Below, piece after piece: positions 8,060 to 37,940 of a DNA stretch of 64,000 nt; the first letter of the stretch is position 1, and every line of letters starts with the position of its first letter. The notes beneath the pieces were generated by a model. The model was given only the letters and a program-made list of their open reading frames with translations, was not told the DNA's origin and searched no databases. The DNA lies in contig CP098528.1 of the NCBI GenBank assembly GCA_030440445.1, positions 3,224,001-3,288,000 of the forward strand, given 5' to 3'. Source of the stretch: Halomonas sp. KG2. Lineage in GTDB: Bacteria; Pseudomonadota; Gammaproteobacteria; Pseudomonadales; Halomonadaceae. Position numbers and translations under genes: made by a program.

Positions 8060-8097
8060 GGCAGTAAACGCTCAGAATCATAGGTCGTAAAAAGAAC

Positions 8098-8134
8098 GCG
8101 CCATTAGCTTTCAACAGGCTAGCGGCGCTTTTTT
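8098..8134 (+). terminator. Rho-independent terminator between convergent genes
   Basis: An 11-bp stem with two mismatches (GCGCCATTAGC / GCTAGCGGCGC) is followed by six T. An A-run on the left side could serve the opposing pgpA transcript as well. Confidence 0.85.
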
Positions 8135-8148
8135 GTTGCTGATATCTT

Positions 8149-9410: not shown

Positions 9411-9515
9411 CCTTGCACTCCTAAGTGGATAGTATCTCTAGGACTCGCTAGACGATTCACTTCCGTTATAAAACATGCTGTATGAACGCAGCATGAATTA
9501 ACGCCACCCCAGGCA

Positions 9516-13726: not shown

Positions 13727-13826
13727 GGCAGGCTCAACGCAAAAAATATGCCCCATCATAGCAATCTGCATTCCAAACTGTCCGTCACGCAGCACAAAAA
13801 GCTTGCTACCAAAGCTCTCTACAAAA

Positions 13827-13847
13827 AGCCCCGCACATGGCGGGGCT
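13827..13847 (-). terminator. Terminator of the DASS symporter gene
   Basis: A perfect 8-bp stem (AGCCCCGC / GCGGGGCT) with a five-base loop lies 24 bases past the symporter stop. On the minus strand it is followed by a T-run (five A at 13823-13827 on the plus strand). Confidence 0.85.
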
Positions 13848-13870
13848 GGAGCAACATTAGTGACTGGCTG

Positions 13871-19500: not shown

Positions 19501-22500
19501 CCGATAGCGCTACTATGGATAGCGGCGCTGGTACTGGCAACTTGGCTAAGCAGTACGGTTAGTATTGCGACCCAACCTCTTATAACAGAAGAAACCGCCC
19601 GTGAGTTTCGGCTAATTGCGCGTAGAACCTGGCGCTACTTTGAAACCTTTGTAACTACATCGACCAATCTACTACCGCCGGACAATTTTCAGGAAGAGCC
19701 TCGGCCGGTTATCGCCCAGCGAACGTCACCAACCAATATGGGTCTATACCTGCTGTCGATACTGGCGGCGCGTGATTTTGGTTGGATCGGTAGCCCCAAC
19801 GCGCTAAGCCGTATAGAAACGACACTTGCCGTCATGCATACCCTGCCCCGCTATCGTGGTCACTTCTTTAACTGGTATGCAATCGATGATCTGCGTCCGC
19901 TAAACCCCAGGTATGTATCTACTGTCGATAGCGGCAACCTTGCTGGTCACCTCATTACTCTCGCTAACGCCTTGGAAACCTGGCAGGACACAACGTTTTC
20001 ACCTGACCCTCGCCAAGCAATAGCTGATACATTGGCATTGGCGTTCGAAGCACTTAAATATGAAGAGCTTAAGCGCTCCTCCCAAGCAGCAGAAACACCT
20101 TCGCCCACCAAACCGCTCACTGATCAGCTTGAGAAAGTCGCCACTCTCGTAAGCGCAAATAAAACATCGCCATTAGACTTGGAAGCCCTGACCAAGCAAA
20201 CCAAAAAAGCACTTAGTATCGCTGGCGACCTTTTCAATGAGCATCTCGCTAGTGACGATGATAAAGATGTGCTTTTTTGGGTGGCAGCACTACACAAAAC
20301 GGCTGCACAGCATAGCGGTGACCACACAAACAACACAATCGCCAATGGCGCACATGTAGAGCGGCTCCAGCAACTGGCCAGTAAAGCGCGACGACTTGCC
20401 CTCAGTATGGATTTTGCGTTTCTCCTCAATCCTGAGCGGCAGTTACTGTCGATTGGCTTCTCGCTGGATGACGTCAGTCTGGACATCAGTTGTTATGATC
20501 TGCTGGCTTCAGAGGCACGGCTGGCCAGCCTGTTTGCCATTGCCAAAGGCGATGTAGCCACTCGTCACTGGTTCCGACTTGGGCGCGCTGCAACCCCCTT
20601 AAAAGAGGGTGCGGCAATGATTTCCTGGTCAGGCTCCATGTTCGAATACCTGATGCCGTCGCTGATAATCCGCGCTCCCGCTGGCAGTCTCTTGGAGCAA
20701 ACTAACCGCCTGATAGTTAAACGCCAGGAAACATACGCCGCCCAGTTTTCAGCTCCTTGGGGCATTTCTGAGTCGGGGTATAACGCACGGGACATAGAGC
20801 ATACTTATCAATATTCCAATTTTGGGGTGCCTGGATTAGGGCTGAAGCGTGGCCTATCGGCCGATTTAGTGGTCGCGCCGTACGCAACGGGGCTGGCGGC
20901 AATGATCGACCCAGAGGGGGCCTTCAAAAATTATCGCCGCCTTGCAGAAATGGGCGCGCTAGGACGCTATGGCTACTACGAAGCGCTAGACCTGACCCGC
21001 TCACGGCTCCCCAAAGGCGCCAAGCTGGTGATTGTGCGCAGCTATATGGCACACCACCAAGGCATGACCATCGTCGCCATCGCTAATACGCTTCACCGTG
21101 GGCAGATGCGACAACGCTTCCACCGCGAACCGATGATTCAGGCGAGCGAGCTATTGCTTCAAGAGCGTATTCCACGGGATGTGGCTATTGCTTATCCCCG
21201 TGCCGAAGAGGTGAAATCAACCGCTAGCCAAACCATCAACGAAGCACAAACCGTGCGCCGTCTATCAACCGGCGTCAACGGACCTCCAGTGACTCACCTG
21301 CTCTCAAACGGCAACTACTCTGTCATGTTGACCGCAACAGGTGGCGGCTACAGCCGATGGCACAATCTTGCCATCACTCGCTGGCAACCAGATACCACAC
21401 GCGATCACTGGGGAAGCGTTATTTTTCTCCGCGATACGCGACGCCCAAGCGTTTGGAATGCAACAGGACAGTCACTGGAATCACATACCGACACGAATAA
21501 CGACGACAATCACGTGTTATTTGCTGAAGATTATGCTCGCTATGACCATCGGCACGAATCTATTGCCAGTCACTTAGACATCCTGGTGTCTGGGGAAGAT
21601 GACAGCGAAGTACGTTTGCTAACACTGACCAACAATGGACGCCAAACCTGCGACATTGATGTTACGGTTTATGCAGAATTAGTACTCACCACGCCGAGTA
21701 CCGACAACGCCCATCCTAGCTTTGCCAAAATGTTCGTGGTTACTGAATACCTTCCAGCATTCAATGCGCTAATCGCCACCCGTCGGCGGCGGGCCCCCAG
21801 CGAAGCGCAAGTGTGGGCAGCTCACTTCGCCGTAGTGGAAGGCGATACTGTGGGAGACTTCCAATATGAGACCGACCGCGAGCAATTTATTGGCCGAGGC
21901 AACCGTATTTCCACAGCAACGGCACTTTCTGAAGGCCAGCATTTATCAGGCACGGTAGGCAGTGTTATTGACCCTATTTTTGCATCGCACTACTGCCTGC
22001 GGATCGCGCCAGGAAAAGCCGCCCGCATCGCTTACTGGACGGTTGTTGCCGGCTCACGCGAGGCGCTGATGGATCTCATTGATAAGCATCATGATGTTAG
22101 CGCCTTTGAGCGAGCAAAAATGCTCGCCTGGACTCAAGCGCAAGTGCAGCTACGCCATTTGGGCACTCAGCCAGAGGAGGCCGCCGACTTTCAGCGGCTG
22201 GCTGCCCCACTGCTCTATCCCGACGCATGCTTTAGGGCACCCCAGAAAACGATTCAAAGCGGCGCAGCTCAACAGTCACTGCTATGGCAACACGGGATCT
22301 CCGGTGATTTACCCATCGTATTGCTGCGGATTGAATCCACTGACGATTTGCCACAATTGCATCAATTACTTCGCGCCCATGAGTATTGGCGCATGAAACG
22401 TCTCGAAGTCGATATCGTCATCATCAATGAGCGTGCCTCCTCTTATATTCAAGATCTACAGCAAGCCATTGAAGCCACGATTCTCAGCAGCCAAGCAAGA

Positions 22501-25251
22501 CCCCGGCTTCACAATGGCTATGCCCAGGGAACGGTTTATGCCTTACGCGCCGACTTAGCAAGCGCCCAGTCACGCTCTCAGCTTCTATCAATTGCTCGCG
22601 TGGTGCTGATAGCGCACCGAGGATCAATTGCAGATCAGCTGTCGGTTATGTTGTCTGGTCAGAGCACCGCCAAGCCTCCGCTTGCCATTACTAAACGCGC
22701 CCTCCCCAGACCGTTGATAGATAAGACTCATACTCTTCGCCAACTTAAGCGGCCTACACTCGAGCTTTTTAATGGTTGGGGCGGGTTTGCAAAGCAAGGA
22801 CGAGAGTATGTCACCATCCTAGAAGCGGGCAGCTCAACGCCTGCGCCATGGATTAATGTCATTGCCAATCAACAGTTCGGGTTTCAAGTATCGGCAGAGG
22901 GCGCTGGCTATCTATGGGCAGACAGCAGCCGAGAAAACCAGCTGACGCCGTGGAGCAATGACCCCGTCATTGACCCAAGCGGAGATGCTGTTTATGTCCG
23001 AGATGAAGAGACGTTCGAGCTTTATACCGCAACGGCAAGCCCGATACGTGATTCAGGCCGCTACGTTGCGCGTCATGGCTTTGGCTATAGCCAATTTGAA
23101 CATCAGAATGACGAGCTTAGCTTAGAACTGTTGCACTTTGTGCCCCTGGATGCCCCGTTGCGCATCTCACGGCTGAGACTGACTAATCATTCAAACCGGA
23201 CACGCAAGCTCTCTGTGACCGCTTATGCAGAGTGGGTTTTGGGCACGTCGCGCAGCGCATCAGCTCCCTTCCTGATTACGTCGCAAGCACCAGAAAGCGG
23301 TGCGTTGTTAGTTACCAATCCATGGAATGCCGACTTCCCAGGCCGAGTGGCTTTTCTCGATATTGGCGAGCCACCTACGCAATGGACTGGCAATCGCAGC
23401 GAGTTTATCGGTTATGGAAAAAACCTGGTCGAACCGGCTGGGTTACGCTGTAAAACGCCGCTTTCCGGTACGTTAGGCGCGGGACTAGACCCCTGCGCCG
23501 CTCTTCAGCGTCCCGTGACGCTAGCCCCAGGAGAAACAGTCGACATTATCGTATTGCTTGGTCAGGGTGGCTCCAATGACGACGTTACGAGGCTGATTAC
23601 CCGTTTTCGTGATGCTGACATTGATGCAGAGCTCGCCAACATTCATGACCATTGGAACACGCAGCTCAATGCCATCCAGGTCAAAACACCTGATCGGGCG
23701 ATGGACATCATGCTAAACGGCTGGCTGCTGTATCAGACCATCGCCTGCCGTTTAACGGCTCGCTCAGCGTTTTACCAAGCCAGCAGTGCCTATGGCTTTC
23801 GCGACCAGCTGCAAGATTGCATGGCATTGACGTTTAGCAACGCCGCTACAACGCGCCAGCATTTACTGCGAGCGGCTTCACGCCAATTCCCGGAAGGCGA
23901 TGTACAGCACTGGTGGTTGCCACATTCCGGACAAGGCGTGCGCACGCGCATCTCTGACGACCGGGTTTGGTTGGCTTACGCCTGCGCGCGTTATCTCGCA
24001 ACAACCCAGGACATAACGGTGCTGGATGAGCCGGTGAGTTTTCTAGACGGCGCGCAGTTGTCATCGCATGAGCACGAACACTTTTTCCAGCCGACCACCT
24101 TGCTGGAAACCGCCCCACTGTTTGAACACTGCGCACGCGGACTGGATATCACCCTTTCGCAACTGGGTGAACATGGCTTGCCGCTGATAGGCGGCGGGGA
24201 TTGGAATGACGGTATGAACCGCGTGGGTGCTGGGGGTAAGGGAGAGAGTGTGTGGCTAGGCTGGTTGCTGCTTAAAACACTTCATCAATTTGCGCCAATT
24301 GCCGAGCAGCGCGAGGCCCAAGCCTGCCACTCAGATGATCCTCAACGCGCCGCTCGTTGGTATCAACATGCCCATGCGCTACGCCTAGCGCTTGAAAACA
24401 GCGCTTGGGATGGCCAGTGGTATCGTCGAGCGACTTACGACAACGGCAGCTGGCTAGGCAGCAAACAAAGCGATGCATGCCAGATTGATTCCATCGCCCA
24501 ATCATGGGCGGTGCTTTCCGGCGCCAGCGACCCTCAGCGGTCGACGCTCGCAATGCACTCCCTGGAGCGCGAGCTCATTCTGCATGACCCGCAGTTAGCG
24601 CTGCTTTTTTGGCCTCCCTTTGATCACCCTAAGCAGGATCCCGGCTATATAAGCGGCTACCCGCCTGGAATGCGCGAAAATGGCGGGCAGTATAGTCATG
24701 CATCAATGTGGGCAATTTTGGCCTTTGCACAGCTGGGTGAAGGCGACAAAGCATATCAGCTGTTTACACTGCTTAACCCCATCAACCATGCCACCACCAC
24801 GGAAGCGGCTATCCGCTATCGCGTTGAGCCTTATGTGGTCGCTGCTGATGTGTATTCTGTGGCACCCCATGTGGGTAGAGGAGGCTGGACATGGTATACC
24901 GGCGCCGCCGGTTGGATGTATCAAGCCGGTATGGAGGGTATTTTAGGCATTCGCCGGGAAGCGAGCTGGCTGGTAATTTATCCCTGCCTGCCAGCGAGCT
25001 GGCCGCATTTTACTACCGACATTACCCTTGCCCAATCGCACTATCATATCAAGGTGACCAACGCGCAAGCTTCTCCAGCGACGTTAAGTCAGAATCTCTT
25101 AAGCCAACCCCTCCTAAGCCAAGCCCTCACGGCAACACTGGATGGCGTTTGCTTAGCAGAAACGGAGGTTGGTATGCCCATTCGAGTGCCCCTAGATAGT
25201 CAGCATCATCAACTAGAGATAGTTATCAGGCGATGTGCCCCTGCATCATGA
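16529..25251 (+). pseudogene. ndvB: Cyclic beta-1,2-glucan synthase (NdvB/ChvB type), split by a frameshift
   Basis: Two open frames, 16529-18286 (585 residues, GTG start, AGGA eight bases upstream) and 18373-25251 (2292 residues), together form one cyclic beta-1,2-glucan synthase of about 2,900 residues. Order: N-terminal region, two membrane helices (near 17850-18030), GT84 transferase (DADT near 18500; QHRWVRGDWQ near 18940), more helices (19040-19570), glycoamylase-like domain, two sugar-binding regions and GH94 phosphorylase (GGGDWNDGMNRVG near 24200). The second frame is open upstream to 18280 and reads ELNKRYCASSHEKRFFLLHR, continuing the first. One base is missing between 18278 and 18284, inside the GT domain. 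If real, osmoregulated periplasmic glucan synthesis would be lost. No recognised slippery heptamer lies at the junction. Confidence 0.88.
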
Positions 25252-25700: not shown

Positions 25701-26293
25701 TGATAAGTTCCTTGTTCTTTTCTCTTTTAAGAGGAGCGATAGGTTGCAACGTAGGTGTCGCCAAGAATAAAACTCAGCGATCGGCACATTATATCGCCAG
25801 TTACTTATCTAATTGAGCGCCCTCCCCAAGTTTTTCATACAACTGCCCGCGAGATACTCACAGCTGGTAGAATGCTGCCCCTTTCAGGCACGTCCACGGC
25901 CTATCGCCACAACGTTTCCCCTTCTACTACCTGAGAGTCGCGCAATGATTGCCACCGTCTACACTGTGTTTCAGCCACTTTTCCGGCTGGGCCTTATCCC
26001 GCAGATTTTAATTGGCATTGTTGCCGGGGTATTCATCGCCCTTTTCACACCGGACATTGCAGGCAATGTGGCACTGCTTGGCCAGCTATTTATTGCCGCT
26101 CTGCAAGCAGTGGCCCCTATTTTAGTTTTTGTGCTGGTTACCGCTGCCATCGCTGCACACAAGAAAGGTCAACCAACACACATTCGCCCCGTGCTCATAC
26201 TGTATGTGGTAGGCACATTAATCGCTGCGCTAATTGCAGTGGCGGCAAGCTTTCTGTTCCCTACCGAACTTTCATTGAATGCGGGGCAAATTG

Positions 26294-26297
26294 ACGG
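26294..26297. repeat. Target-site duplication, left copy (ACGG)
   Basis: ACGG immediately precedes the left terminal repeat GGTAATCCCCCC. The same four bases follow the right end. Four-base duplications are usual for the IS407 group. Confidence 0.88.
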
Positions 26298-26368
26298 GGT
26301 AATCCCCCCGAAAAACCAGGGTGTTCAAAAGTAGAATTTTCCGTAAGCTAAACGCAGGGAGATTCTGC

Positions 26369-26635
26369 ATGAAAAAATCACGTTTTTCTGACAGCCAAAT
26401 ACTGTCAATTCTCAAGCAAGCCGAAGGCGGCGCTCCGGTTCCAGAGCTGTGTCGTGAGCATGGCATGAGCAGTGCGACTTTCTACAAGTGGCGAGCTAAA
26501 TTCGGCGGCATGGATGCGTCCATGATGGCCCGGTTGAAAGAGCTAGAGGATGAAAACCGACGGCTCAAGAAGATGTACGCTGAGGAACGATTGAAAGCGG
26601 ACATCCTCAAGGAAGCCATCGAAAAAAAGTGGTGA
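26369..26635 (+). CDS. IS3-family transposase OrfA
   Basis: The 88-residue helix-turn-helix protein ([18 protein letters not shown], then [20 protein letters not shown]) has a C-terminal leucine-rich coiled coil, matching IS407-group OrfA. ATG 26369 is chosen because the family begins MKK and CAGGGAG lies upstream; the open frame extends further left without support. It overlaps orfB and ends GAA AAA AAG TGG TGA, containing the shift site. Confidence 0.93.
26623..26629 (+). other. Predicted -1 frameshift site A AAA AAG in the transposase
   Basis: The heptamer A AAA AAG lies in the orfA frame seven bases before its TGA stop. Slipping back one base enters the orfB frame and would give the OrfAB fusion transposase, as known for IS3-family elements. 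This is sequence-based; no product was observed. Confidence 0.75.
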
Positions 26636-27456
26636 AGCCGTCTCGACGCCGTGAGATGGCGCAGAAAGCCGTCAATGAGAAGCGCATCAGCATTCGACTG
26701 GCTTGCTGGATGTTCAGCATCAGCGAGACCTGCTATCGCTACCGGGCCAAGCTCAGCAGCGAGAATACCGAGATCGCCGACTGGCTAATCCGGTTGACCC
26801 ATAACCAGCGCAATTGGGGCTTCGGCCTGTGCTTTTTGCACCTGAGAAACGTCAAAGGGTTTGGCTGGAATCACAAACGGGTTTACCGAATTTATCGGGA
26901 GCTGGAACTGAACCTGCGGATAAAACCCAAGAAACGCCTGGTTCGTGAAAAGCCGGAGCCATTGGCCGTGCCGGAAATGATCAATGACAGTTGGTCGATG
27001 GACTTCATGCACGACCAGCTCAACGATGGTCGCAGATACCGGCTGCTGAATGTGATTGATGACTTCAACCGCGAAGGCCTTTGCATCGAAGTAGACTTCT
27101 CGCTTCCGACAGAGCGTGTTATACGGTCACTGGAGCAGATCATTGAGTGGCGGGGCAAACCGCGCTCTATTCGCTGTGACAACGGCCCTGAATACATCAG
27201 CGGCAAGCTGGCGAACTGGGCGAAAAACCAAGGCATTGTGTTGGCGTTTATCCAGCCCGGCAAGCCCCAGCAGAATGCCTATATCGAACGCTACAACCGA
27301 ACGGTGCGTTACGATTGGCTGGCCCAGTATCTGTTCGACAGCACCGAAGAAGTCCAAGGTTATGCTACTCGCTGGCTCTGGCACTACAATCACGAACGAC
27401 CCAATATGGGACTCGGAGGAATCACTCCTCAACAGAAGTTGGCCATGATGGCCTGA
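26629..27456 (+). CDS. IS3-family transposase OrfB (DDE integrase domain)
   Basis: OrfB has about 275 residues and reads in the -1 frame relative to orfA. An N-terminal HTH_21-like region (residues 45-100) precedes the rve integrase core. The acidic residues are visible: D in [10 protein letters not shown] in RCDNGPEY and E in NAYIERYNR, with the usual spacing of about 35 residues between the last two. It carries out strand transfer as an OrfAB fusion. It is complete and without stops; its end is identical to the copy at 1-213. Confidence 0.94.
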
Positions 27457-28399
27457 GGCCTACTTTTGAAGCCCTCTAAAAATGGGGGGATTACCACGGC
27501 AATCCTCCTGGGGATATTTTTAGCGTTCTAAGGGACCTGTTATTGAATGCGGTGGCTAACCCGGTAAGTGCGCTAATGGAAGCGAACTTTATCGCTATTC
27601 TGGCATGGGCCATTGGCCTTGGTTTAATGCTACGCCAAGCCAGCGACACCACCCGCCAAGCGTTAAGCGATTTATCCACTGCTGTCACCCGCATTGTCAC
27701 GCTGGTAATTCGCTTAGCGCCGATTGGCATCTTTGGCTTAGTCGCGGGAACCTTGGCAGAGTCAGGGGTAGAGGCATTGCTCAACTACGCTCAACTGCTA
27801 GGGGTCATCGTAGGCTGTATGCTGTTTGTTGCTCTGGTTAGCAATCCGTTGCTCGTTTACTTCACTACCCGTCAGAACCCTTACCCACTGGTGTTCACCT
27901 GCCTGCGCGGCAGTGCCATCACCGCCTTTTTCACCCGTAGCTCAGCGGCGAATATCCCCGTAAATTTAGAGCTGTGCCGCCGCCTAAAGCTGGATGCCGA
28001 CACCTACGCTATTTCTATTCCGCTCGGCGCGACGATCAACATGTGTGGTGCAGCTATCACCATAACGGTGATTACCTTGGCGACCACCCATACGCTAGGC
28101 ATTACCGTCGACTTCCCCACAGCCCTACTACTGTGCGTGGTGTCTGCACTGGCTGCCTGCGGTGTTTCAGGCGTAGCCGGTGGTTCGCTGATGCTAATTC
28201 CGATGGCTGCCAACCTGTTTGGCATTCCAACAGAAGTTGCCATGCAGGCGGTAGCGATTGGCTTTGTCATCAGCGTGGTACAAGACGCGACCGAAACCGC
28301 GCTGAATTCCTCAACGGATGTGCTGTTCACTGCTGCCGCCTGCCGAGCCCGTCAACCGTCCGACTCTGACCACACGATATAACACAATTTGTTTGACTT

Positions 28400-28451: not shown

Positions 28452-28982
28452 ATGGATGAGCACTCACTAAGTACCCTAGGCCAGCATTTGCAATCCCTTC
28501 GCCAAGCGCGGGGCTGGTCACTCTCCTATCTAGCCAATGCCGCTGGCATTGCCAAATCGAATCTGTGCCGTCTGGAACAAGGTAATGGCAACCCCACCTT
28601 GGACACCATCTGGCGGTTAGCAGTGCAGCTTAATGTCCCCTTCGGCACCCTGGTCGCGCCTATCTCAGTGCCTTTAGGTGAAGATGGCGTGCAAGTTCAG
28701 TTAATTGACCAGGGAAAAGGCTCGCCTCAGGTAGATGCCTATTGGATGCGCTGCGCTCCCCATACCCTGCGTCACGCTGAAGCTCACACCCTGGGCACTC
28801 AAGAAACGCTGACCCTGATCAGCGGCTGGCTAGAAGCCGGCCCAGAAGGGGCAGTGACGACGCTAACCCCTGGCGAAAGCATCACCTTCCGTGCTGATAA
28901 GCCTCACTTTTACCGCACCCAAGACCACGAGGCCACCATGCTACTTACCATTACTTACGGCGAACAGGGAGAAGCGCTATGA
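28452..28982 (+). CDS. XRE-family regulator with cupin domain
   Basis: The 176-residue protein has an N-terminal XRE helix-turn-helix (about residues 8-62, including WSLSYLANAAGIAKSNLCRLEQG) and a C-terminal cupin-like sensor domain (about 100-175). It overlaps azlC by four bases (ATGA) and sits behind a long palindrome, so it most likely regulates its own azlCD operon in response to a small molecule bound by the cupin, perhaps an amino acid. The ligand is unknown. Confidence 0.9.
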   Translation: MDEHSLSTLGQHLQSLRQARGWSLSYLANAAGIAKSNLCRLEQGNGNPTLDTIWRLAVQLNVPFGTLVAPISVPLGEDGVQVQLIDQGKGSPQVDAYWMRCAPHTLRHAEAHTLGTQETLTLISGWLEAGPEGAVTTLTPGESITFRADKPHFYRTQDHEATMLLTITYGEQGEAL

Positions 28983-29704
28983 ACCAACTCGTCAGCCACT
29001 CGCCTTGGCGTAGCGCGCTGCAAGGCGTGCGGGAAGCGATTCCGCTATTGGGTGGTTACATACCGGTGGCGCTATCATTTGGTTTAGTGGCTAGCCAAGC
29101 AGGCTTTAGCACATGGGAAGCCACAGCTATATCAGCGCTGATTTACGCGGGTGCTTCGCAGTTTTTGTTTGTGGGCATGATCGCCACCGGCGCTCCGCTG
29201 TGGTTGGTGGTAGCAATGACATTACTGATTAATGTGCGCCATGTAGTGTACGGCCCTAACCTAGCCGAGCTGCTGCCGCGCAGCCGCCATTGGCCATGGC
29301 TAATGCACGGCCTAACCGACCAGGTATTTGCTCTGGCATTAACCAGGCTTCCTCAGTTGCCTGACGCGAAGCGCTTTAGCTGGTTTGTAGGTGCATCGTT
29401 ACTGGCGTGGGGAGCATGGGCAGTGGGCACTGCCGTGGGGGCTACCGCTGGCGAAACATTTACCGCCCGCTGGCCGTTGTTGGGTGAAATTATGCCCTTC
29501 GCGCTGCCTGCACTATTTCTCACCATGGTGGCTCCGCGTTTTACCGATAAACGCTGGGCAGTAGCAATGGGACTCACCATCATTGCCGCACTGTGTTTAA
29601 CGCTGACTGGATGGGGCAATGTGGCCATCCCATTGGCGGCTGCCTGTGGCGCGCTGTGCTTCTATCTGGTGAAGTTTGAAAAAAGGAGAGGAAGTAATGA
29701 GTAG
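28979..29704 (+). CDS. azlC: AzlC-family branched-chain amino acid exporter, large subunit
   Basis: The 241-residue membrane protein has the family start (REAIPLLGGYIPVALSFGLVA) and the conserved region ALIYAGASQFLFVGMIATGAP and INVRHVVYGPNL. With AzlD it forms an export pair, as YgaZH does for valine in E. coli. It overlaps the upstream regulator by four bases and the downstream azlD by eight. The exported substrate is inferred from the family only. Confidence 0.92.
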   Translation: MNQLVSHSPWRSALQGVREAIPLLGGYIPVALSFGLVASQAGFSTWEATAISALIYAGASQFLFVGMIATGAPLWLVVAMTLLINVRHVVYGPNLAELLPRSRHWPWLMHGLTDQVFALALTRLPQLPDAKRFSWFVGASLLAWGAWAVGTAVGATAGETFTARWPLLGEIMPFALPALFLTMVAPRFTDKRWAVAMGLTIIAALCLTLTGWGNVAIPLAAACGALCFYLVKFEKRRGSNE

Positions 29705-30032
29705 CGCGTTGTGGTTAGCGGTGATGATATCCGCGATAGGTACTCTGCTGATGCGTGTGGTGCCTTTTCTATGGATGCAGCGCCGTATAAACAGTGAGAC
29801 AGGCATTAACAATATGCCTCAGTGGCTAAGTATTCTCGGCCCGCTGATGATCGCCGCTGTGCTCGGTGTTTCTATCGTGCCAGTGAGCCCGAGTGCCGTT
29901 TCATGGATTGCCACTGCTATCGGTCTTGCCGTCACATTGTGGGTATGGTCGCGGCTCCGCTCTTTGGGCTGGCCGGTCGCTGCTGGGGTGGCAGTATTTG
30001 GCATCGTAGAGGTGGGGGTAGCGCTAATATAA
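29697..30032 (+). CDS. azlD: AzlD-family exporter, small subunit
   Basis: The 111-residue protein has four hydrophobic segments and AzlD features (GTLLMRVVPF, ILGPLMIAAVLGVSIV). I start it at ATG 29697, preceded by AAAGGAGAGGAAGTA, so it overlaps the azlC stop by eight bases; the open frame from 29676 would include the ribosome site. It partners AzlC. A stem-loop covers its stop codon. Confidence 0.9.
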   Translation: MSSALWLAVMISAIGTLLMRVVPFLWMQRRINSETGINNMPQWLSILGPLMIAAVLGVSIVPVSPSAVSWIATAIGLAVTLWVWSRLRSLGWPVAAGVAVFGIVEVGVALI

Positions 30033-30047: not shown

Positions 30048-31337
30048 CTAAAACGCTTTTGGAAACACTAATTGCGGTAAATACAGAAAGACGCTTGGCA
30101 GTAGTATCATGGCGATAATTATCGACATAATGAGCACTATTAGCGGTATTACTGCCATAAAAGCACGCGGCATGGAAACTTCGCCAATCTGTGTTGCGAT
30201 AAGCAGACAAATACCATAGGGAGGCGTAATCAACCCTAGGGTGAGCGATAAAATCACTACCAGCGCCATATGGACCTGGTTGATATCAGCCGCGATACAC
30301 AGTCCCTGAATAATGGGGAGGAAGATAATAACTGCCGTCACCGGGCTGAGAACGGTTCCAATCACTAACATGAACAGCATCACCAACAGCATGATGCCCA
30401 CCCGCGATTGCGTTACGGTGAGGATAAAGTTAGCGACCTCCTGAGCGATCCCCAAGTACGAAATCAGCCACCCCATAATGCCTGCGGAAGCAACAGCAAA
30501 CATCGGTAACGAAAAGGCTACAACCGAATCTGACAAAATGCCGGGAAGCTGCCTAAAACGTATCGCTCGATAAAAAACAAAGGCCAACAACACGCCTACT
30601 AAGACCGCTACCGAAGCCGCTTCCGTAGCAGTGAATACGCCTAGGGTGATGCCACCTAGCACCACTAGCGGCAGCACCATAGGTGGAGCAGCGGTGATCG
30701 CTGTACGCCCCATTTGGCGGAAAGAGAACTTACCCGTTGCTTTAATATCGTGCTTTCTCGCGATGTAATACACATATCCCATCTGCATCAAACCGACGAG
30801 TATCCCTGGCAGAATGCCCCCCATAAACAGAGCACCCACTGATACATTGCCAAAGGCACCGTAAATTACCATGAGAATCGAGGGTGGAATGATCCCTCCC
30901 AGCACAGACGATGCTGCCGTCAATGCCACAGCAAACGGCGCGGGATAGCCCGACTTCTTCATCGCAGGAATGAGCACCGCCCCCACGCTGGCAGTATCTG
31001 CAGCTGCAGACCCCGAAAGGCTGGCGAACATCATGGATACCATGACATTGATGTGGCCCAGACCGCCGCGAACATGCCCAACGGTGCTATCCGCAAAGCG
31101 CAGCAGGCGGTCGGTGATGCCCCCGTCGTTCATCAGGCGCCCTAACAATAGGAAGAAAGGCACGGCCAGTAACGGGAATGAGTTAATGCTGGCAAACATC
31201 TGATTAACGACCGAGGTTAAAGGCAGCCCCAATTGCATGATCGTCAATATGGAAGCCAAACCAATAGCAAAAGCGATAGGGACACTTAGGCCGATAAGAA
31301 TCAGAAAACTGCCAATCAAGGTAATCAATGGACTCAT
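30048..31337 (-). CDS. dctM: TRAP transporter large membrane subunit (DctM)
   Basis: The 429-residue protein has about twelve hydrophobic helices and DctM stretches such as PLLAVPFFLLLGRLMNDGG, GSAAADTASVGAVLIPAM and LSLTLGLITPPYGICLL. It carries the substrate across the inner membrane using the Na+ gradient, with DctQ and the binding protein. It overlaps dctQ by four bases (ATGA) and is the last gene of the minus-strand set. Confidence 0.93.
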   Translation of the reverse strand: MSPLITLIGSFLILIGLSVPIAFAIGLASILTIMQLGLPLTSVVNQMFASINSFPLLAVPFFLLLGRLMNDGGITDRLLRFADSTVGHVRGGLGHINVMVSMMFASLSGSAAADTASVGAVLIPAMKKSGYPAPFAVALTAASSVLGGIIPPSILMVIYGAFGNVSVGALFMGGILPGILVGLMQMGYVYYIARKHDIKATGKFSFRQMGRTAITAAPPMVLPLVVLGGITLGVFTATEAASVAVLVGVLLAFVFYRAIRFRQLPGILSDSVVAFSLPMFAVASAGIMGWLISYLGIAQEVANFILTVTQSRVGIMLLVMLFMLVIGTVLSPVTAVIIFLPIIQGLCIAADINQVHMALVVILSLTLGLITPPYGICLLIATQIGEVSMPRAFMAVIPLIVLIMSIIIAMILLPSVFLYLPQLVFPKAF

Positions 31338-31840
31338 GATTCGGGGGCCTCTCCACCACTGGCCGCATCTCTACCAGCACGCAGCTTAGCGATATCATCG
31401 CGAATAGTCTCAATAGAAAATAGCAACATGGAGATACCTGCTACGGGGATCGCGGCGAACACATAGGCCATGGGCGTACCTAAGGCTACCGAGCGTCGGT
31501 TCCAGCCCATATCCACCAGTACATTACCGTGCACAATCAGTACATAGATCACGGGCAGACAGGCGAGGCTACCGAATAAGCGTAATACGCGCTGAGTAAT
31601 AACAAAGCTTGGAGGGAACACGTCCACCACATAGTGCCTACGCTTACGCAGTGCAATGGCCGCGCCAATAAAGACCGCCCAAATGAAACAAGCCATAGCA
31701 ACTTCATCGGTCCACGATACTGATATTTTCAGGTAGTTACGTGCCACCACCTGATAGAGCACCGTTAGGATAAAGGCTGCAAACAGCGAGCCCGCGATAA
31801 ATGTCAGGAGTTTCTCCAACAGATCGTTTATTTTCCGCAT
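31334..31840 (-). CDS. dctQ: TRAP transporter small membrane subunit (DctQ)
   Basis: The 168-residue protein has four hydrophobic helices and the family pattern (LYQVVARNYLKISVSWTDE, then WAVFIGAAIALRKRRHYVVD). ATG 31840 is chosen because the family begins shortly before the first helix and AGGG lies upstream; the open frame to 31939 would overlap the dctP end. It lies 76 bases after dctP and overlaps dctM by four bases. Confidence 0.92.
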   Translation of the reverse strand: MRKINDLLEKLLTFIAGSLFAAFILTVLYQVVARNYLKISVSWTDEVAMACFIWAVFIGAAIALRKRRHYVVDVFPPSFVITQRVLRLFGSLACLPVIYVLIVHGNVLVDMGWNRRSVALGTPMAYVFAAIPVAGISMLLFSIETIRDDIAKLRAGRDAASGGEAPES

Positions 31841-31916
31841 TTTTCTGCCCTTACATTGGCGCACTGCTTTCAGATGAGACACAAAGCAGCACGCCAAAGC
31901 GCTGATGGATCGCGGT

Positions 31917-32903
31917 TTACAGGTTGCGAATCGTGTCAAGCAGCTCAGTCAAACCACGTTCCTCAGCAAACTCGTCATGCAGAGGAACGACCGCATCAAT
32001 GAAGGCCTGCTTGTCGACTTCAGTCACCGTTACACCTAGCTCCTCGAATTCCTGAATAAACTCCGCATCGTACTCCACTCCTTTTTCAGTGCCGAACTCA
32101 CCCGCATTCTGGGCCGCATTGAGAATGATGGCCTGATCCTCTTCCGAGAAGCGGTTAAAGCGGTTCTCACTGATGGAAATATGGCTCATCATCACCTGGT
32201 GTTCGGTTTTGGCATGATAAGGAGCTACTTCATAAAGGCGGCTTGAGTAATAACCACTGATGGTGCTCTCGAAGGCCCCCACTACGCCGGTTTGCAGGCC
32301 AGTGTAGATTTCTGTCCATGGTAGCGATGTCGTCAACGCACCGACTGATTGCCACATATCAGCATCCAGGCGGGAACCAGTCACACGCATCTTGATACCT
32401 TGCAGATCAGAGGGCTGGGTGACAGGTCCGGTATTGGTACTTAAATTGCGCGTTCCCCCTCCTGTCAGACTCAACAACTTCAAGCCTACGCCTGACTCCT
32501 GCATAGCGTTGGCGAAGTAGTCAAACACGGGCGAGTCTGGAGAGGTGGCAGCCCGGAATTTATCCATATCTTCAAACAGATAATTAAGACTGAAAATTTC
32601 AAATTCAGGGGTATACGGCGAAATATTCATCACACCGCCAATGATCATATCGGTAGTACCGATACGAATCTCATCGACCATTGTCTGGTCATTACCTAAT
32701 TGGCCACCTGGGAAAATCTGTACATCGATACGCCCATCGGTCGCTTCTGCTACTTCGGCTTTAAACGCTTCAGCAGCATCAATCCATGGGTGAGGAGCAC
32801 TTACTACCGTGCCCAAGCGCAAGGTTTCTGCCATAGCAGGGGAAATAAAAAGCATGGAAGTTGCGGCTGCCAGGGCCAAGCGCGAAAACGTACGTTTTGT
32901 CAT
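31917..32903 (-). CDS. dctP: TRAP transporter periplasmic substrate-binding protein (DctP)
   Basis: The 328-residue protein has a signal peptide (cleavage probable after AMA, about residue 25) and the DctP fold. The conserved Arg that binds a carboxylate lies in IKMRVTGSR (about residue 170). A carboxylated substrate is therefore likely, but its identity cannot be read. AGAGGAAC lies about seven bases before ATG 32903. Its upstream leader holds four 17-bp repeats. It is the first TRAP gene of the block and probably serves the catabolic genes upstream. Confidence 0.9.
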   Translation of the reverse strand: MTKRTFSRLALAAATSMLFISPAMAETLRLGTVVSAPHPWIDAAEAFKAEVAEATDGRIDVQIFPGGQLGNDQTMVDEIRIGTTDMIIGGVMNISPYTPEFEIFSLNYLFEDMDKFRAATSPDSPVFDYFANAMQESGVGLKLLSLTGGGTRNLSTNTGPVTQPSDLQGIKMRVTGSRLDADMWQSVGALTTSLPWTEIYTGLQTGVVGAFESTISGYYSSRLYEVAPYHAKTEHQVMMSHISISENRFNRFSEEDQAIILNAAQNAGEFGTEKGVEYDAEFIQEFEELGVTVTEVDKQAFIDAVVPLHDEFAEERGLTELLDTIRNL

Positions 32904-32927
32904 GGGGACGTTCCTCTTATATGTTTA

Positions 32928-32995
32928 CTAGCGGTCTATGGGTGCTAACTGTCTATAGGTACTAACTGCCGATAGTGACTAGCTGCCGATAGATA
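32928..32995. repeat. Four 17-bp tandem repeats upstream of dctP
   Basis: Four degenerate head-to-tail copies occupy 32928-32944, 32945-32961, 32962-32978 and 32979-32995. Each starts CTA on the plus strand and shares a CTATAG/CGATAG core, for example CTAACTGCCGATAGTGA. They start 25 bases upstream of the dctP ATG, within the 140-bp gap that follows the CMD genes. They could be operator sites or simple slippage repeats. Confidence 0.8.
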
Positions 32996-33042
32996 CTCGC
33001 CAGGGATGTGCCAACGTTTTAAAAAGCGGGTGCTTGCTTAAG

Positions 33043-33621
33043 CTATGCTCCCGATACAGGTTCACCAAGGGTGTGCATAAGCCGGTTTGCCCAGCCAAAC
33101 AGAGTGGTTGAGAGGGTAAGATCCAAAATTTCCTGATCATCCAGCCCTGCTTCACGTAGGCTGGCAATATCATCTTCGGTTACTTGGGGAGGACACTCAG
33201 AGAGCCGCATGCCAAACTTAAGGATGGCACGCTGACGAGCATCGATATCCGCCTTTTCGCCATTGAAGAAGATCTCCTGCATCACCCGCTCATCACGCGT
33301 CAGGTTGTTATAACGCTGAGCATGCACAGCCGCGCAGTAGATACAGCGGTTGACGACCGATGCTGCCACCGCTCCCAGTTCCCGCTCTTCACGGGATAGA
33401 CCACCCTTGTCATACATGATGCCGTTAAATAGAGACGTGCGAATACGCAGCGGCTCAGGATCATGCGCCAACACCAATACATAGTCGGAAATTTTGGTGT
33501 TGGAAGGCGTCTCTTTCAGCGCTTCCCGTTGAGCAGGTGTCGCCTGATCAAAATCAATCGGCGTGATATGGGGACGCCACGTGGGTACCCGGGTAGTGAA
33601 CTTGTGAATGACACGACTCAT
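33043..33621 (-). CDS. AhpD/CMD-fold peroxidase-related protein with CxxC
   Basis: The 192-residue protein belongs to the carboxymuconolactone decarboxylase/AhpD superfamily. The redox motif C-I-Y-C-A-A-V-H is present (C93, C96, H100), with E80/E81 upstream, as in alkylhydroperoxidase-like enzymes. It resembles the uncharacterised peroxidase-related family often paired with a second CMD protein. Its start overlaps the stop of the upstream CMD gene by four bases (ATGA). It may reduce a peroxide or a disulfide formed by the neighbouring flavoenzyme; this is inference. Confidence 0.82.
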   Translation of the reverse strand: MSRVIHKFTTRVPTWRPHITPIDFDQATPAQREALKETPSNTKISDYVLVLAHDPEPLRIRTSLFNGIMYDKGGLSREERELGAVAASVVNRCIYCAAVHAQRYNNLTRDERVMQEIFFNGEKADIDARQRAILKFGMRLSECPPQVTEDDIASLREAGLDDQEILDLTLSTTLFGWANRLMHTLGEPVSGA

Positions 33622-34112
33622 TGGTTTTTCCCCATCACACTCAGCACAGCAGCAACGCGCAGCTGGTAGTTAACGAAAGCAACCAGCCCGGCTAAGCGGA
33701 CAATATCTGCTTCATCAATGCCTGCGGCACGTAGCGAACCGATTGTTGCTTCGCTGGCATCCCGTGGTCGTTCGGTGACCAAATCAACGTAATCCACCAT
33801 CGCAACCAAACGCTGGTTATCCGCCGGTGGCATTTGCCCTGGAAGAGCCAGTTGGTAAGGGTCGGCATCATCGCCATACCCGGCAAGCAAATCAGCATAG
33901 TGCTGTGTCAGCCCTGCTTGCTGGCAAATTCTCGCCATACGACATGCCAGCGCCGCTCTTAAGCTGGCGGGCAGGTTCCCGGCATCACTGGGTAGCAGCG
34001 CTGCTTCATAGGATGCTTGTGTCAGCTCCATCAACTTGCCGCGCATGGTCAGGGCTTCGGCCAGCGGGCCGCTGCTGGGCACGCCAGCGGCTGTTTCCAG
34101 TACATGTGACAT
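33618..34112 (-). CDS. CMD-domain protein lacking the CxxC motif
   Basis: The 164-residue protein has the helical CMD pattern (ASLRAALACRMARICQQAG, later IGSLRAAGIDEADIVRLAGLVAFVNYQLR). The CxxC motif of active AhpD proteins is absent: its two nearby Cys are spaced six residues apart. It resembles the companion subunit of the CMD pair seen in other proteobacteria. AAGGAAC lies five bases before ATG 34112. It is translationally coupled with the CxxC-bearing partner, suggesting a hetero-oligomer. Confidence 0.75.
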   Translation of the reverse strand: MSHVLETAAGVPSSGPLAEALTMRGKLMELTQASYEAALLPSDAGNLPASLRAALACRMARICQQAGLTQHYADLLAGYGDDADPYQLALPGQMPPADNQRLVAMVDYVDLVTERPRDASEATIGSLRAAGIDEADIVRLAGLVAFVNYQLRVAAVLSVMGKNQ

Positions 34113-34160
34113 TTTGGTTCCTTAACATTGCAATACAAAGACGATGTTAGCGCTACGCAT

Positions 34161-35615
34161 TCAAGACAATGGGGAAGGCTCCCACTCATCCCCCAGTAGT
34201 TCCGGAGAGTCGTAGTGTTCGAGTAGCTGCCAGTGGCGTTCAATGTCTTCTCGATAAAAGCCTGCGGCAATTGCACCTGCCAACCAGCTGGCTCCTTCGC
34301 TGATCCCAGGAATGTCACCGCTGACTTTGCCTAAGCTAATAGAGGCGCCATAGTTAAAGCAGTGGATATTACGCAGCCAGGGGGCCGCTCCTGGCTCTCG
34401 TTCTTGGAAGGCAAAGTCGCGATCCACGTAAGGAAAATTGCCCAGCTCCTCATGCTGAAGCTCGGCGGGTGGCTGATATCGATCACGCCACAGCAGGATA
34501 CGATCGGCATACCCTGCCAGCTCGGTACGGGCCAGTGGGTCAACTTCAAACCCAGTTCCCAGAATCAGAAAGTCGCAGCGAACCTGTTTGCCCTGCTGGG
34601 TCGTGATCACCACTTCCGACCCTTCAACTCGAATATTTTCAATGCCACAACCAAAGTGAAAATAAGCATTCTCATGGCGGCTGACGCGCAACGTCGAGCC
34701 ACGAGGAGGCGGCGTCTGAGTGATAAAAGAGTAATGCATAATGCGCCAGCGCCACTCATCCGGCAGTGTTGCGTAGCCATGAGTAAAGCCATAGGAGCCA
34801 ATACCCATCATTTTGTTGATTGTCGGCATCTGCTGACGGCGAATCAGGAAGCGAACCTCGCTGGCGCCATGCTCCAGCGCCTCAGCAGCATTATCAATCG
34901 CCGAGGCGCCTACCCCCACCACGACCACACGCTTCCCTTTAAGGGCAGTAAAGTCGATATCGTCCGCCGTGTGTGCCCAGCTAGATTCCGGCAAACCAGC
35001 AACGAAATCGGGAATCTTGGGGGCACCGGTACCTTCACGGCCAGTCGCCATAATCAGTTTACGTGTTAGAACACGTTCAGCCGTCGCGCCTGGGCCAGAA
35101 AGCTCAAGACTGAGTAGCTCTCCCTCGGGCTTAACATGCTCAACCTTGACACTATTTTCGACCGGCAGGTTGAGAACTTCACGGTACCAGCAAAGGTATT
35201 CCATCCAGGTAGGTCGCGGAATCTTGTCAAGAATTTCCCAAGCCTCGGTGCCAAACTGCGCCTCATACCAAGCCCGGAAGGTCAGTGAGGCAAACCCATA
35301 GCTGGGTCCTGGTAATGTTTTCGGCGAACGCAGTGTCTCCATGCGGGCATAGTTCATCCAGGGCCCTTCTTTACCCGCCGGGTTGCGATCAAAAATACGG
35401 ATATTGGAGATGCCTCCCGACAGTAGCGCGAAAGCCGCCACTAAACCGCACTGCCCCCCCCCCACAATCACGACATCGTAAACGTGCCGCCCATCCTCTC
35501 TCTCTAATGGGGGAACCCAATTAGCAGGTGGCAGGTTCAGACAGGCGAGGTCGTGCTTCACACGTGCATTCAAGGCTTCAAGGCCGGCACCGGCCAAAGA
35601 GGGAGTGAGGGTCAT
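34161..35615 (-). CDS. FAD/NAD(P)-binding oxidoreductase, flavin monooxygenase-like
   Basis: The 484-residue protein has an FAD Rossmann motif (VVIVGGGQCGLVAA, about residues 47-60) and an NAD(P) motif (VVVVGVGASAIDNAAEA, about 230-246), the two-dinucleotide-domain plan of class B flavin monooxygenases. An ATGR-type stretch (LIMATGREGTG) lies between them. It may oxygenate a sulfur or nitrogen atom of the pathway substrate. It overlaps the upstream PLP enzyme gene by four bases (ATGA), so it belongs to the same operon. The true substrate is unknown. Confidence 0.8.
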   Translation of the reverse strand: MTLTPSLAGAGLEALNARVKHDLACLNLPPANWVPPLEREDGRHVYDVVIVGGGQCGLVAAFALLSGGISNIRIFDRNPAGKEGPWMNYARMETLRSPKTLPGPSYGFASLTFRAWYEAQFGTEAWEILDKIPRPTWMEYLCWYREVLNLPVENSVKVEHVKPEGELLSLELSGPGATAERVLTRKLIMATGREGTGAPKIPDFVAGLPESSWAHTADDIDFTALKGKRVVVVGVGASAIDNAAEALEHGASEVRFLIRRQQMPTINKMMGIGSYGFTHGYATLPDEWRWRIMHYSFITQTPPPRGSTLRVSRHENAYFHFGCGIENIRVEGSEVVITTQQGKQVRCDFLILGTGFEVDPLARTELAGYADRILLWRDRYQPPAELQHEELGNFPYVDRDFAFQEREPGAAPWLRNIHCFNYGASISLGKVSGDIPGISEGASWLAGAIAAGFYREDIERHWQLLEHYDSPELLGDEWEPSPLS

Positions 35616-37261
35616 GGCATCATCTCGGCTTGTGTCTGCATGGCCTGTTCGGCTTCATGGGGCCACCAGAACCAACGAACGGGTACATCTTCAGCATGGC
35701 GATTAGCGGGTAAAGGCAAGGCTTTCGCCAGTTCAACCAATTCAAGCGCTCTGGCAAAGCAATCAAGTACTGTGGCCTCGTCAGCTGTTCCAACAGATGC
35801 ATCCTTAGTGAAAAGCGTATCCAATAGGCATGGCGTTACTGACTCTTCGGATTGAGCTGACGCATCAGGGCGCTGGGCAACCCAAACACCACTATGTTCA
35901 TCCACAGAGTAAAGTTTCATTAATACTGGGGCATAACGCGCAATAAACTCGACCGCTGATATTACATAGTTAGCCGACTCATTGCTAAAAAAGAAGTTAA
36001 ATCCGAGTCTTACCCAACCTGGGCGATATATGCTTCTACCTTTTTGGACTAACGCTTCATGCGCTGCAGCCGTATCACTATCAATGGAAAGCAGTTCATG
36101 ACCATAAGGGCCCGCGCAGGAACAGCCACCTCTAGCCTGAATACCGAATAGGTCATTCAGCATGGCAACCACGAGGTTATGGTGTATCGCCCTTTCTCCA
36201 GCAGTGACATTGAACGAGAAGATGGCCAGCCTGGGCGCATTAAGTGAGCCAAGCAGGTTTAGGTTGGCTATTTTTTGCCAGCGTGCCACCGCCATGGCCA
36301 CCAACTCTTTCTCGCGCAGTTCAATGGTCTCAGTGCCAACTTTTGCTTTGATACGGAACGCCAACCCCGCGCGAATGTCGCCCAAAATATTAGGCGTACC
36401 CGCTTCCTCCCGACGCTCGACATTCTGAACATAGCGATGATGGGAGGCAGTTACATAGGATACCGTGCCGCCACCTGAAATAGATGGCTTCGCATTGCAG
36501 CACACCGCTTTGCGAATCACCAGCACGCCGGAACTTCCAGGTCCACCAACAAACTTATGAGGGGAAAGGAAGACGGCATCCAAATGATCGCCTTGGCCGC
36601 TGCCTGCCATATTGATCGCGACATAGGGCCCACTTGCCGCATAGTCGAACACAGCCAAGCCGCCATATTGGTGCGCTAACTTGGCTATCTGGGCCACGGG
36701 CGACAAAATCCCCGTTACATTCGAAGCAGCCGAAAACGCCACGACTTTAACTTCCCGCTCGGCATGTGCCTGCAATTGCTGTTCTAGTATTCCCAGATCA
36801 ACAAGACCATGGCTATCCAGAGGAGTACGTACCAGATCAACATCGCACTCACGCCATACCAGGTCATTGGAGTGATGCTCATAGGGGCCAACGAAAACAA
36901 CCGGTTTGGAGACCTTCGAAGTCACTTGCCCATGGGTCAACTCAAGAATGCGACAGCAACGATCTATCGCCGCGGTTGCACCAGCACCAGCAAAAATGAC
37001 CGCATATTCGTCATCAGCACCTACAGACTCCGCCACAGCTTGGCGAGCAGCTTCCCGTAGCCGCGTGGTCATTTTACCGGTGTAAGAGGTTTCTGTATGC
37101 GTATTGGCATACAGAGGCAACACCTCCTCCTGCATTGCCCGCTCGACGATATCCAACGCCCTTCCCGATGCCGTGTAATCGGCATAGAGCAAGGGGCAGT
37201 CTCCAAATGGGCCGGGGATCAAGCGCCCTTCTCCAATGACCCCACTCTGTAGGCGCTCCAT
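35612..37261 (-). CDS. Class V aminotransferase fold PLP enzyme, cysteine desulfurase-like
   Basis: The 549-residue protein has a class V PLP fold: the pyridoxal lysine in LSPHKFVGGPGSSG (K236), the cofactor Asp in AVFDYAASGP (D206) and His in GPYEHHSNDL. A Cys-rich loop RGGCSCAGPYGH (C380, C382) sits where desulfurases and selenocysteine lyases carry their persulfide Cys. A C-terminal extension of about 140 residues is longer than SufS or IscS. I start it at ATG 37261, four bases after the regulator stop; the longer frame would overlap that gene by 71 bases. It probably breaks a C-S or C-N bond of an amino-acid-like substrate. Confidence 0.78.
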   Translation of the reverse strand: MERLQSGVIGEGRLIPGPFGDCPLLYADYTASGRALDIVERAMQEEVLPLYANTHTETSYTGKMTTRLREAARQAVAESVGADDEYAVIFAGAGATAAIDRCCRILELTHGQVTSKVSKPVVFVGPYEHHSNDLVWRECDVDLVRTPLDSHGLVDLGILEQQLQAHAEREVKVVAFSAASNVTGILSPVAQIAKLAHQYGGLAVFDYAASGPYVAINMAGSGQGDHLDAVFLSPHKFVGGPGSSGVLVIRKAVCCNAKPSISGGGTVSYVTASHHRYVQNVERREEAGTPNILGDIRAGLAFRIKAKVGTETIELREKELVAMAVARWQKIANLNLLGSLNAPRLAIFSFNVTAGERAIHHNLVVAMLNDLFGIQARGGCSCAGPYGHELLSIDSDTAAAHEALVQKGRSIYRPGWVRLGFNFFFSNESANYVISAVEFIARYAPVLMKLYSVDEHSGVWVAQRPDASAQSEESVTPCLLDTLFTKDASVGTADEATVLDCFARALELVELAKALPLPANRHAEDVPVRWFWWPHEAEQAMQTQAEMMP

Positions 37262-37265
37262 CCAC

Positions 37266-37733
37266 TCACGAGAGATCGCCGAGGGGGAGCTCGGTGGTTT
37301 TCTTGACTTGTTCCATTGAGAAGCACGATGTGACATTACTGAGCTCTATTTTCGCAATCAGCCTTTTATAAAAGGCGTCATAAGATTGGTTATTACGCGT
37401 AATGACCTTGAGTAAGTAGTCGTATTCACCTGCGAGACGATTAACTTCTACGATCTCAGGAAAGTTTTTAACCGTTTCCTGAAATGTATCAAGCCAAGCT
37501 TGGTTGTGTTTATCCGTTTTAACCATCACAAACACAGTAAGACTAAGATCCAATTTCTCAGGGTTCAGTACGGCAATTCTTTTTTCTATAATTCCGTCTT
37601 TTTCCAGCTTTTGTATTCGCCGCCAACACGGCGTAACAGAGAGACCAACCCCTTCTGCAAGCTGTGCAATAGAAAGACTATCATCGCGCTGAAGCTGTTC
37701 AAGAATTTTCAAATCAAAACGATCAATAAGCAA
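37266..37733 (-). CDS. Lrp/AsnC-family regulator, DecR-like
   Basis: The 155-residue protein has an AsnC helix-turn-helix (about residues 5-62, including LAEGVGLSVTPCWRRIQKLE) and a RAM effector domain. It closely resembles DecR (YbaO) of E. coli, a cysteine-responsive activator: both share TPCWxR, AGEYDYL, YDEFYKRL-type and FxMEQxKxTTxLP segments. The start is TTG 37733 with GGGGG nine bases upstream. It is first in the minus-strand operon and has a palindrome directly upstream, consistent with autoregulation and control of the genes that follow. The cysteine or thiol ligand is inferred from similarity. Confidence 0.85.
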   Translation of the reverse strand: MLIDRFDLKILEQLQRDDSLSIAQLAEGVGLSVTPCWRRIQKLEKDGIIEKRIAVLNPEKLDLSLTVFVMVKTDKHNQAWLDTFQETVKNFPEIVEVNRLAGEYDYLLKVITRNNQSYDAFYKRLIAKIELSNVTSCFSMEQVKKTTELPLGDLS

Positions 37734-37778: not shown

Positions 37779-37940
37779 CCTTTGATCGATACGGTCAAGG
37801 GAAATAATTTTTCACCTCCAACTCTGTTGATTTCAACTAAGCATCTACTCCGGCTAAAAGGACATCCCAAAACGGTGCAAAAAAATATGCTGCACCACAA
37901 AGAACAATACATAAAAGATTAAAATCGAAACCACTATGGT

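Follow-up and report, generated by a model that had tools for sequence, protein, structure and literature searches.

A DecR-like regulator with a SufS-fold enzyme, a hydroxylase-fold flavoprotein, a CMD pair and a TRAP importer in Halomonas sp. KG2: a possible operon for organosulfur catabolism

Introduction

What does a bacterium degrade with an operon in which a DecR-like regulator is followed by a desulfurase-like enzyme, a hydroxylase-fold flavoprotein, two paired small proteins and an importer? The question is raised by a locus of the halophile Halomonas sp. KG2, which lies in a stretch of 64,000 nucleotides of contig CP098528.1 (positions 3,224,001 to 3,288,000), hereafter the window. 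At 30048-37733 of the window, on the minus strand, eight genes lie head to tail, encoding a regulator of the Lrp/AsnC family (Lrp), a class V pyridoxal phosphate (PLP) enzyme, a flavin monooxygenase-fold protein (FMO), two carboxymuconolactone decarboxylase-family (CMD) proteins, CMD1 and CMD2, and the DctP, DctQ and DctM subunits of a tripartite ATP-independent periplasmic (TRAP) importer. A first-pass annotation of this DNA had reported such a row, and all eight genes were confirmed, with 4-bp overlaps and gaps. Its interpretation is supported in part.

We tentatively read the operon as serving the substrate-induced catabolism of an imported compound, which would give cysteine or an analogue and be followed by desulfuration. 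This reading is drawn largely from gene context, and we hold it with slightly less than even confidence. Searches of the open-licence full texts of PubMed Central (PMC) by gene set, families or pathway gave, among the papers listed, no description of the cluster. The enzyme families are known but their combination is new; it is distributed broadly and, apparently, repeatedly, and the enzyme core is also found in marine and soil bacteria of distant kinship. If the reading is true, an oxygen-dependent branch would be added to the organosulfur catabolism of marine and rhizosphere bacteria, and a SufS-like family mostly recorded as 'aminotransferase class V' would gain a catabolic role.

The PLP enzyme and the sulfur-related neighbours of its relatives

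The PLP enzyme had been called desulfurase-like, and a persulfide-loop sequence and a long C-terminal extension had been noted in it. The RGGCSCAGPYGH loop is indeed found in the protein sequence, and the extension is real, since the Pfam domain spans only residues 51-413 of the 574. With the predicted structure (pLDDT 88.0) as query, Foldseek returned SufS-type cysteine desulfurases at TM scores of 0.83-0.89 (target-normalised), and all 50 listed structural matches are titled cysteine desulfurase or selenocysteine lyase. In a profile alignment C407, the second cysteine of the loop, corresponds to the loop cysteine of SufS, and the PLP lysine and active-site histidine are aligned as well; both C405 and C407 are invariant. 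Model and alignment support a SufS-type fold with the catalytic cysteine, histidine and lysine in place. These are the features that the enzyme would share with SufS-type cysteine desulfurases, whereas it differs from them by its CxC loop, the C-terminal extension, the DecR-like neighbour and a score far under the cut-off of the curated SufS model TIGR01979 (154.3 bits, cut-off 475.1). From the active site and the gene context we infer that it would desulfurate a cysteine-like substrate.

Sulfur genes stand beside some of its relatives. In five of the 77 PLP loci, all on rhizobial plasmids, the PLP gene adjoins a gene for a Blh-like (persulfide-dioxygenase) protein of the metallo-beta-lactamase (MBL) fold. 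For one of these proteins the match covers the dioxygenase part of the Blh model and scores 561 bits (cut-off 625), the other four match that protein by BLAST, and in two of the five loci a TauE-family gene follows. On roseobacter plasmids, three loci of two species have the PLP gene followed by genes for an FAD oxidoreductase (DAO), a PF14196 protein and an M20 amidohydrolase, as assigned by family models run on one of the three. This context may represent ring opening and hydrolysis of an N-acyl-cysteine, giving free cysteine. The sulfur reading of the operon rests on these neighbours together with the DecR-like regulator and the desulfurase active site.

The DecR-like regulator and a candidate operator

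That the first gene of the operon resembles decR is borne out by the protein identities, which are 48.0% to E. coli DecR/CyuR (150 aa) and 35.4% to E. coli Lrp (147 aa). Sequence comparison therefore supports a DecR-like regulator, closer to DecR than to E. coli Lrp. Of the 77 PLP loci, 63 have a gene of the Lrp family no further than 1.5 kb away, and in none of these 63 is E. coli Lrp the best match. DecR goes also by the name CyuR; it regulates cyuPA of E. coli in dependence on cysteine and binds the motif GAAwAAATTGTxGxxATTTsyCC (PMC11408624). The E. coli system, with its cysteine importer and desulfidase (PMC11408624, PMC9040844), shares with the operon a DecR-like regulator, an importer and a sulfur-removing enzyme, the last presumed for the window. 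In contrast, the window has a SufS-fold PLP protein and a TRAP importer, and adds a hydroxylase-fold protein and a CMD pair.

Upstream of the Lrp gene lies the candidate operator TGAAAAATTATTTC, whose half-site words are similar by eye to those of the CyuR motif, although the spacing is shorter. For TGAAAWWWTATTTC there is one exact match in the 4.57-Mb genome, which is the site at 37801-37814; with one mismatch there are 8 genome matches, equal to the reversed control. Upstream of Lrp a match with 0-1 mismatches was found in 15 of the 23 same-strand Lrp/PLP loci, window included, one of the 15 (L179) being from another family, and a few of the same-strand loci have their best match away from the aligned position. 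However, in the 36 divergent Lrp/PLP loci the candidate was not better than 60 simple base shuffles, with the exception, at best, of L119. An operator common to the whole PLP family was rejected, and the divergent loci count among the points held against our reading below. A TTGACC hexamer, read by eye, stands 2 bases downstream of TGAAAAATTATTTC; the promoter scan did not list it within any promoter and gave one match on the minus strand, compared with 1.8 in shuffles.

As a further observation on the regulator genes, five loci from two bacterial families (L072, L073, L074, L179 and L180) carry open reading frames (ORFs) of ~1052-1067 aa and ~396-420 aa upstream of Lrp-PLP. At L074 they match models of resistance-nodulation-division (RND) efflux, and in the same-genus genome G010 the genes upstream of Lrp-PLP score above the cut-offs of models for RND efflux permeases and adaptors. 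E. coli decR likewise precedes transporter genes, mdlAB.

The hydroxylase-fold flavoprotein and its urate-related kin

The FMO is predicted to have the class B NAD(P)H-flavin hydroxylase fold, and in structural comparison it is matched best by NADPH-dependent hydroxylases. The FAD urate hydroxylase HpyO of Xanthomonas is described as dependent on FAD and NAD(P)H (PMC4562309). The likeness to HpyO-type enzymes lies in the FMO hydroxylase fold and in relatives at ~40% identity, one of them in Pseudoxanthomonas, which stand beside urate-pathway genes; a kinship to HpyO would follow from these relatives.

FMO loci were divided by the presence of the CMD pair, which was found at 62 of 109. Gene labels at the loci are BLAST best matches against a small custom reference set, and the FMO loci from one search are the best 80 of at least 142 confirmed candidates. 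Among the 47 loci lacking the CMD pair, 11 have a match to hydroxyisourate hydrolase or 2-oxo-4-hydroxy-4-carboxy-5-ureidoimidazoline (OHCU) decarboxylase nearby and 4 more a PuuE-like match alone, three of the urate-type neighbour genes being confirmed by family model. In contrast, such matches are present at 0 of the 62 CMD-pair loci, window included. Urate catabolism, or an identity with HpyO, was rejected for the window FMO on this ground.

The urate-related neighbours nevertheless point to a nitrogen heterocycle. FMO, CMD1 and CMD2 might degrade a sulfur-free cyclic ureide or another such heterocycle, and the PLP enzyme would then serve a linked but separate need, for example cysteine homeostasis during hydroxylase activity. 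The neighbourhoods of the loci without CMD pair speak for this alternative, as does the frequent occurrence of the three genes without a PLP gene. We consider it unlikely, in view of the 62 CMD-pair loci free of urate-type matches and of the repeated joining to the PLP gene described below, which argues for a direct metabolic link.

Two relatives have other company. At positions 11401-15040 of locus L136, from a metagenome-assembled genome (MAG), a 47% FMO relative adjoins, on the opposite strand, an ORF judged TauE-like by eye, which no NCBIfam model matched, and genes for phosphotransacetylase and sulfoacetaldehyde acetyltransferase, a hint of sulfonate metabolism near the FMO family. At 5500-12000 of locus L070, in the same-genus genome G184, a second FMO (49%) is accompanied by a DsbA-like gene, an ORF that by eye resembles a dipeptidase and genes of a spermidine-type ATP-binding cassette (ABC) importer.

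The CMD pair

The motif E-x11-C-x2-C-x3-H defines AhpD-type proteins. In CMD2 its residues (E81, C93, C96 and H100) are conserved in 60/60 aligned sequences, whereas in CMD1 no cysteine is found among the columns conserved at 95% (56 sequences) and the AhpD-type motif is absent. After length filters the conservation alignments held 56 CMD1, 60 CMD2 and 58 FMO rows. The closest described pair is CMD_Avi_7170 and perox_Avi_7169 (TIGR04029 and TIGR04030), which the window pair resembles in having one protein of each kind, adjacent to each other. However, the window proteins do not reach the cut-offs of these families: CMD1, in which no Pfam domain was found, scores just below the TIGR04029 cut-off (93.8, cut-off 100.75), and CMD2 clearly misses that of TIGR04030 (150.6, cut-off 233.15). 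A. fabrum CMD1 passes TIGR04029 (101.9). Both models are labelled hypothetical equivalogs, and our reading, if true, would provide a context for relatives of their members.

Co-occurrence and assembly of the cassette

The nearest named protein relatives of the operon are from Vreelandella and Halomonas. Seventeen further genomes of the family (L052-L068) have Lrp, PLP, FMO, CMD1, CMD2 and TRAP genes together, and the gene row is therefore not due to chance. In a survey of 201 same-family genomes at E <= 1e-60, with loci fetched from all 20 FMO and all 35 PLP genomes, PLP was present in 35, FMO in 20 and both in 18 (Fisher p 3.5e-14, ignoring relatedness).

A set confined to close relatives had been named as a finding that would refute the early proposal. 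The four genes for PLP enzyme, FMO, CMD1 and CMD2 occur together also in Rhodobacterales, in Ahrensia, on one Rhizobium plasmid and in a MAG titled Deltaproteobacteria. The PLP enzyme accompanies the CMD pair at 33 of the 62 FMO loci, and in 32 of these 33 the order PLP-FMO-CMD1-CMD2 is kept on one strand. Some species or strains are counted more than once among the plasmid and genome loci, and absence of a partner is weak evidence at several loci because contigs end near the genes.

The importers vary. In the window the DctP, DctQ and DctM domains all score above their Pfam cut-offs, whereas relatives of the module have spermidine-type or amino-acid-type ABC importers instead of TRAP. The species scan contributed 13 of the four-gene loci. 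Each of them carries an octopine-dehydrogenase-family gene and spermidine-type ABC genes, 12 have an Lrp gene and 10 a gene of the major facilitator superfamily (MFS); at L102, L104 and L111, the three loci with an MFS gene whose gene layout was drawn up, it separates PLP from FMO. In Rhizobium sp. N621 the FMO goes with an amino-acid ABC importer, and CMD1-CMD2 adjoin Lrp, PLP, an MBL gene and TauE. FMO-CMD1-CMD2 commonly has an importer of its own and is an independent module with varying importers.

These neighbours bring an opine-type or other N-substituted amino acid into view as substrate; the PLP enzyme would then cleave a C-N or C-S bond but carry out no true desulfuration. Both the octopine/nopaline dehydrogenase-family gene, found with most spermidine-type-ABC versions of the module, and the importer types of the relatives would suit such a substrate. 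However, the dehydrogenase gene was not seen near the TRAP version of the window, nor at the TRAP-type locus L098, whose contig ends just after DctM, and the PLP enzyme keeps the catalytic residues of cysteine desulfurases. We regard an opine-type substrate as quite unlikely.

On the PLP tree (77 rows) the FMO adjacency label changes at least four times, counting strongly supported branches only, which suggests repeated assembly. The Rhodobacterales rows came mainly via the FMO search, which inflates the FMO labels in that clade; matches below 400 aa, such as the shortened PLP of G137, were left out, and long branches meet in the tree. With this caveat on FMO-search sampling, the simplest reading is that the genes were brought together independently in the window's family, among Rhodobacterales and in Rhizobium, and that the link was lost once.

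Weighing a possible route to cysteine

In the course of catabolism that we favour, DctPQM would import an organic acid or amino-acid derivative, as its family suggests. The FMO, by its fold an NAD(P)H-dependent class B hydroxylase, would oxygenate the imported compound, and CMD1/CMD2, one AhpD-type subunit with a motif-less partner, may process the product of this oxygenation or reactive by-products. Oxygenation would thereby free cysteine or a close analogue. By homology the DecR-like regulator would sense the freed thiol, and the SufS-fold PLP enzyme, judging from its active site and context, would take the sulfur as an enzyme persulfide and leave alanine. Conceivably, a Blh-like enzyme whose gene lies elsewhere in the genome oxidises the persulfide to sulfite. 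The joined parts suggest that the PLP enzyme receives cysteine or an analogue from the FMO-CMD module.

The first-pass annotation had placed the flavoenzyme and the CMD pair in the handling of reactive sulfur or peroxide, and this assignment is not upheld. As a defence against thiol or oxidative stress the two would remove these reactive species, but the best structural matches of the FMO are hydroxylases, the module often lacks the PLP gene, urate-type neighbours occur at loci without CMD pair, and an importer, commonly found with the module, suits catabolism better. Because the FMO-CMD unit is independent and its importers vary, conversion of an imported compound is likelier than protection of the cell, and we rank defence low as the main role and find it improbable.

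Several results weigh against a route to cysteine, in addition to the divergent loci and the urate-related kin of the FMO. At 29 of the 62 CMD-pair loci there is no PLP gene within 12 kb, some contigs being short. In a phylum-wide draw of 398 genomes the PLP gene was present in 23, of which G435, with its match at a contig edge, was left out of the fetched loci, and the FMO stood beside the PLP gene in 1 of 19 newly fetched loci (L188); viewed from the PLP gene, only a minority of loci have the FMO link. In three genomes of the same genus (G010, G144 and G174) Lrp-PLP is kept at 82-83% identity and the FMO has no match in the genome. No MBL gene of the Blh-like kind was seen beside the other 72 of the 77 PLP loci, the window operon has none, and none was seen at L185 or L187, whose PLP proteins are 66-73% identical to the rhizobial one. 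The Blh-like gene of the own genome is unlinked and reaches 398 bits (cut-off 625), and the Blh model also scores below cut-off in 13/14 control genomes. Nor does this route account for the octopine-dehydrogenase-family gene carried by the Rhodobacterales clusters. The own-genome Blh-like gene lies near ORFs which we take to resemble YeeE/YedE.

A more specific form of the route to cysteine would be a new aerobic pathway for a cyclic or N/S-substituted cysteine adduct, for instance of the thiazolidine type. The hydroxylase and the CMD heteropair would open the adduct and the SufS-like enzyme would strip the sulfur from the freed cysteine. The cassette would have been assembled several times and joined to three or more importer types, among them TRAP, spermidine-type ABC and amino-acid ABC. 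The guess of such a substrate is based on the roseobacter context and on the heterocycle-related neighbours of distant FMO relatives, and we rate this form as rather unlikely. Among the matches listed, the solved relatives of DctP are mostly TRAP binding proteins and include uncharacterised TRAP proteins and sialic acid binders, and because they are of several kinds no DctP ligand is inferred from sequence.

Gene calls and neighbouring genes

The coordinates are collected in Table 1. The 4-bp overlaps are those of PLP/FMO, CMD1/CMD2 and DctQ/DctM, and gaps of 48 bp and 139 bp separate FMO/CMD1 and CMD2/DctP, respectively. If the first ATG is taken, Lrp and PLP overlap by 71 bp; the PLP enzyme may start at 37336 or at an inner start, and residues 1-18 have a pLDDT <50 in the predicted model. 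The DctQ start proposed in the table is an inner ATG of the TTG ORF.

Table 1. Features of the operon and the candidate operator, in window coordinates.
Feature	Position	Strand	Basis or remark
Lrp/AsnC-family regulator, DecR/CyuR-like	37266..37733	-	TTG start; PF01037 + PF13412
Class V PLP enzyme, predicted SufS fold, CxC loop (C405, C407), long C-terminal extension	35612..37336	-	PF00266
FMO, class B NAD(P)H/FAD monooxygenase-fold protein, distant kin of urate-cluster hydroxylases	34161..35615	-	predicted fold, neighbourhoods
CMD1, TIGR04029-like, without conserved cysteine, presumed non-catalytic partner	33618..34112	-	profile score, alignment
CMD2, TIGR01926 peroxidase-related protein	33043..33621	-	above cut-off; E-x11-C-x2-C-x3-H motif
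DctP, TRAP substrate-binding protein	31917..32903	-	PF03480; TIGR00787 above cut-off
DctQ, TRAP small permease	31334..31939 as listed TTG ORF, likely start ~31840	-	PF04290
DctM, TRAP large permease	30048..31337	-	PF06808; TIGR00786 above cut-off
Candidate operator TGAAAAATTATTTC	37801..37814	-	upstream of Lrp gene

Tail to tail with the operon, at 28452-30032 on the plus strand, lie a helix-turn-helix regulator gene and then genes of the AzlC and AzlD families. Further away on the same strand (25813-28382), two ORFs at 25813-26334 and 27543-28382 match positions 1-94 and 124-383 of PF00375, the sodium:dicarboxylate symporter family, and an integrase-core transposase ORF (26629-27456) lies between them. 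At 18373-25251, also on the plus strand, a protein of 2292 aa with Glycoamylase and GH94 domains is encoded, which presumably resembles cyclic beta-glucan synthases.

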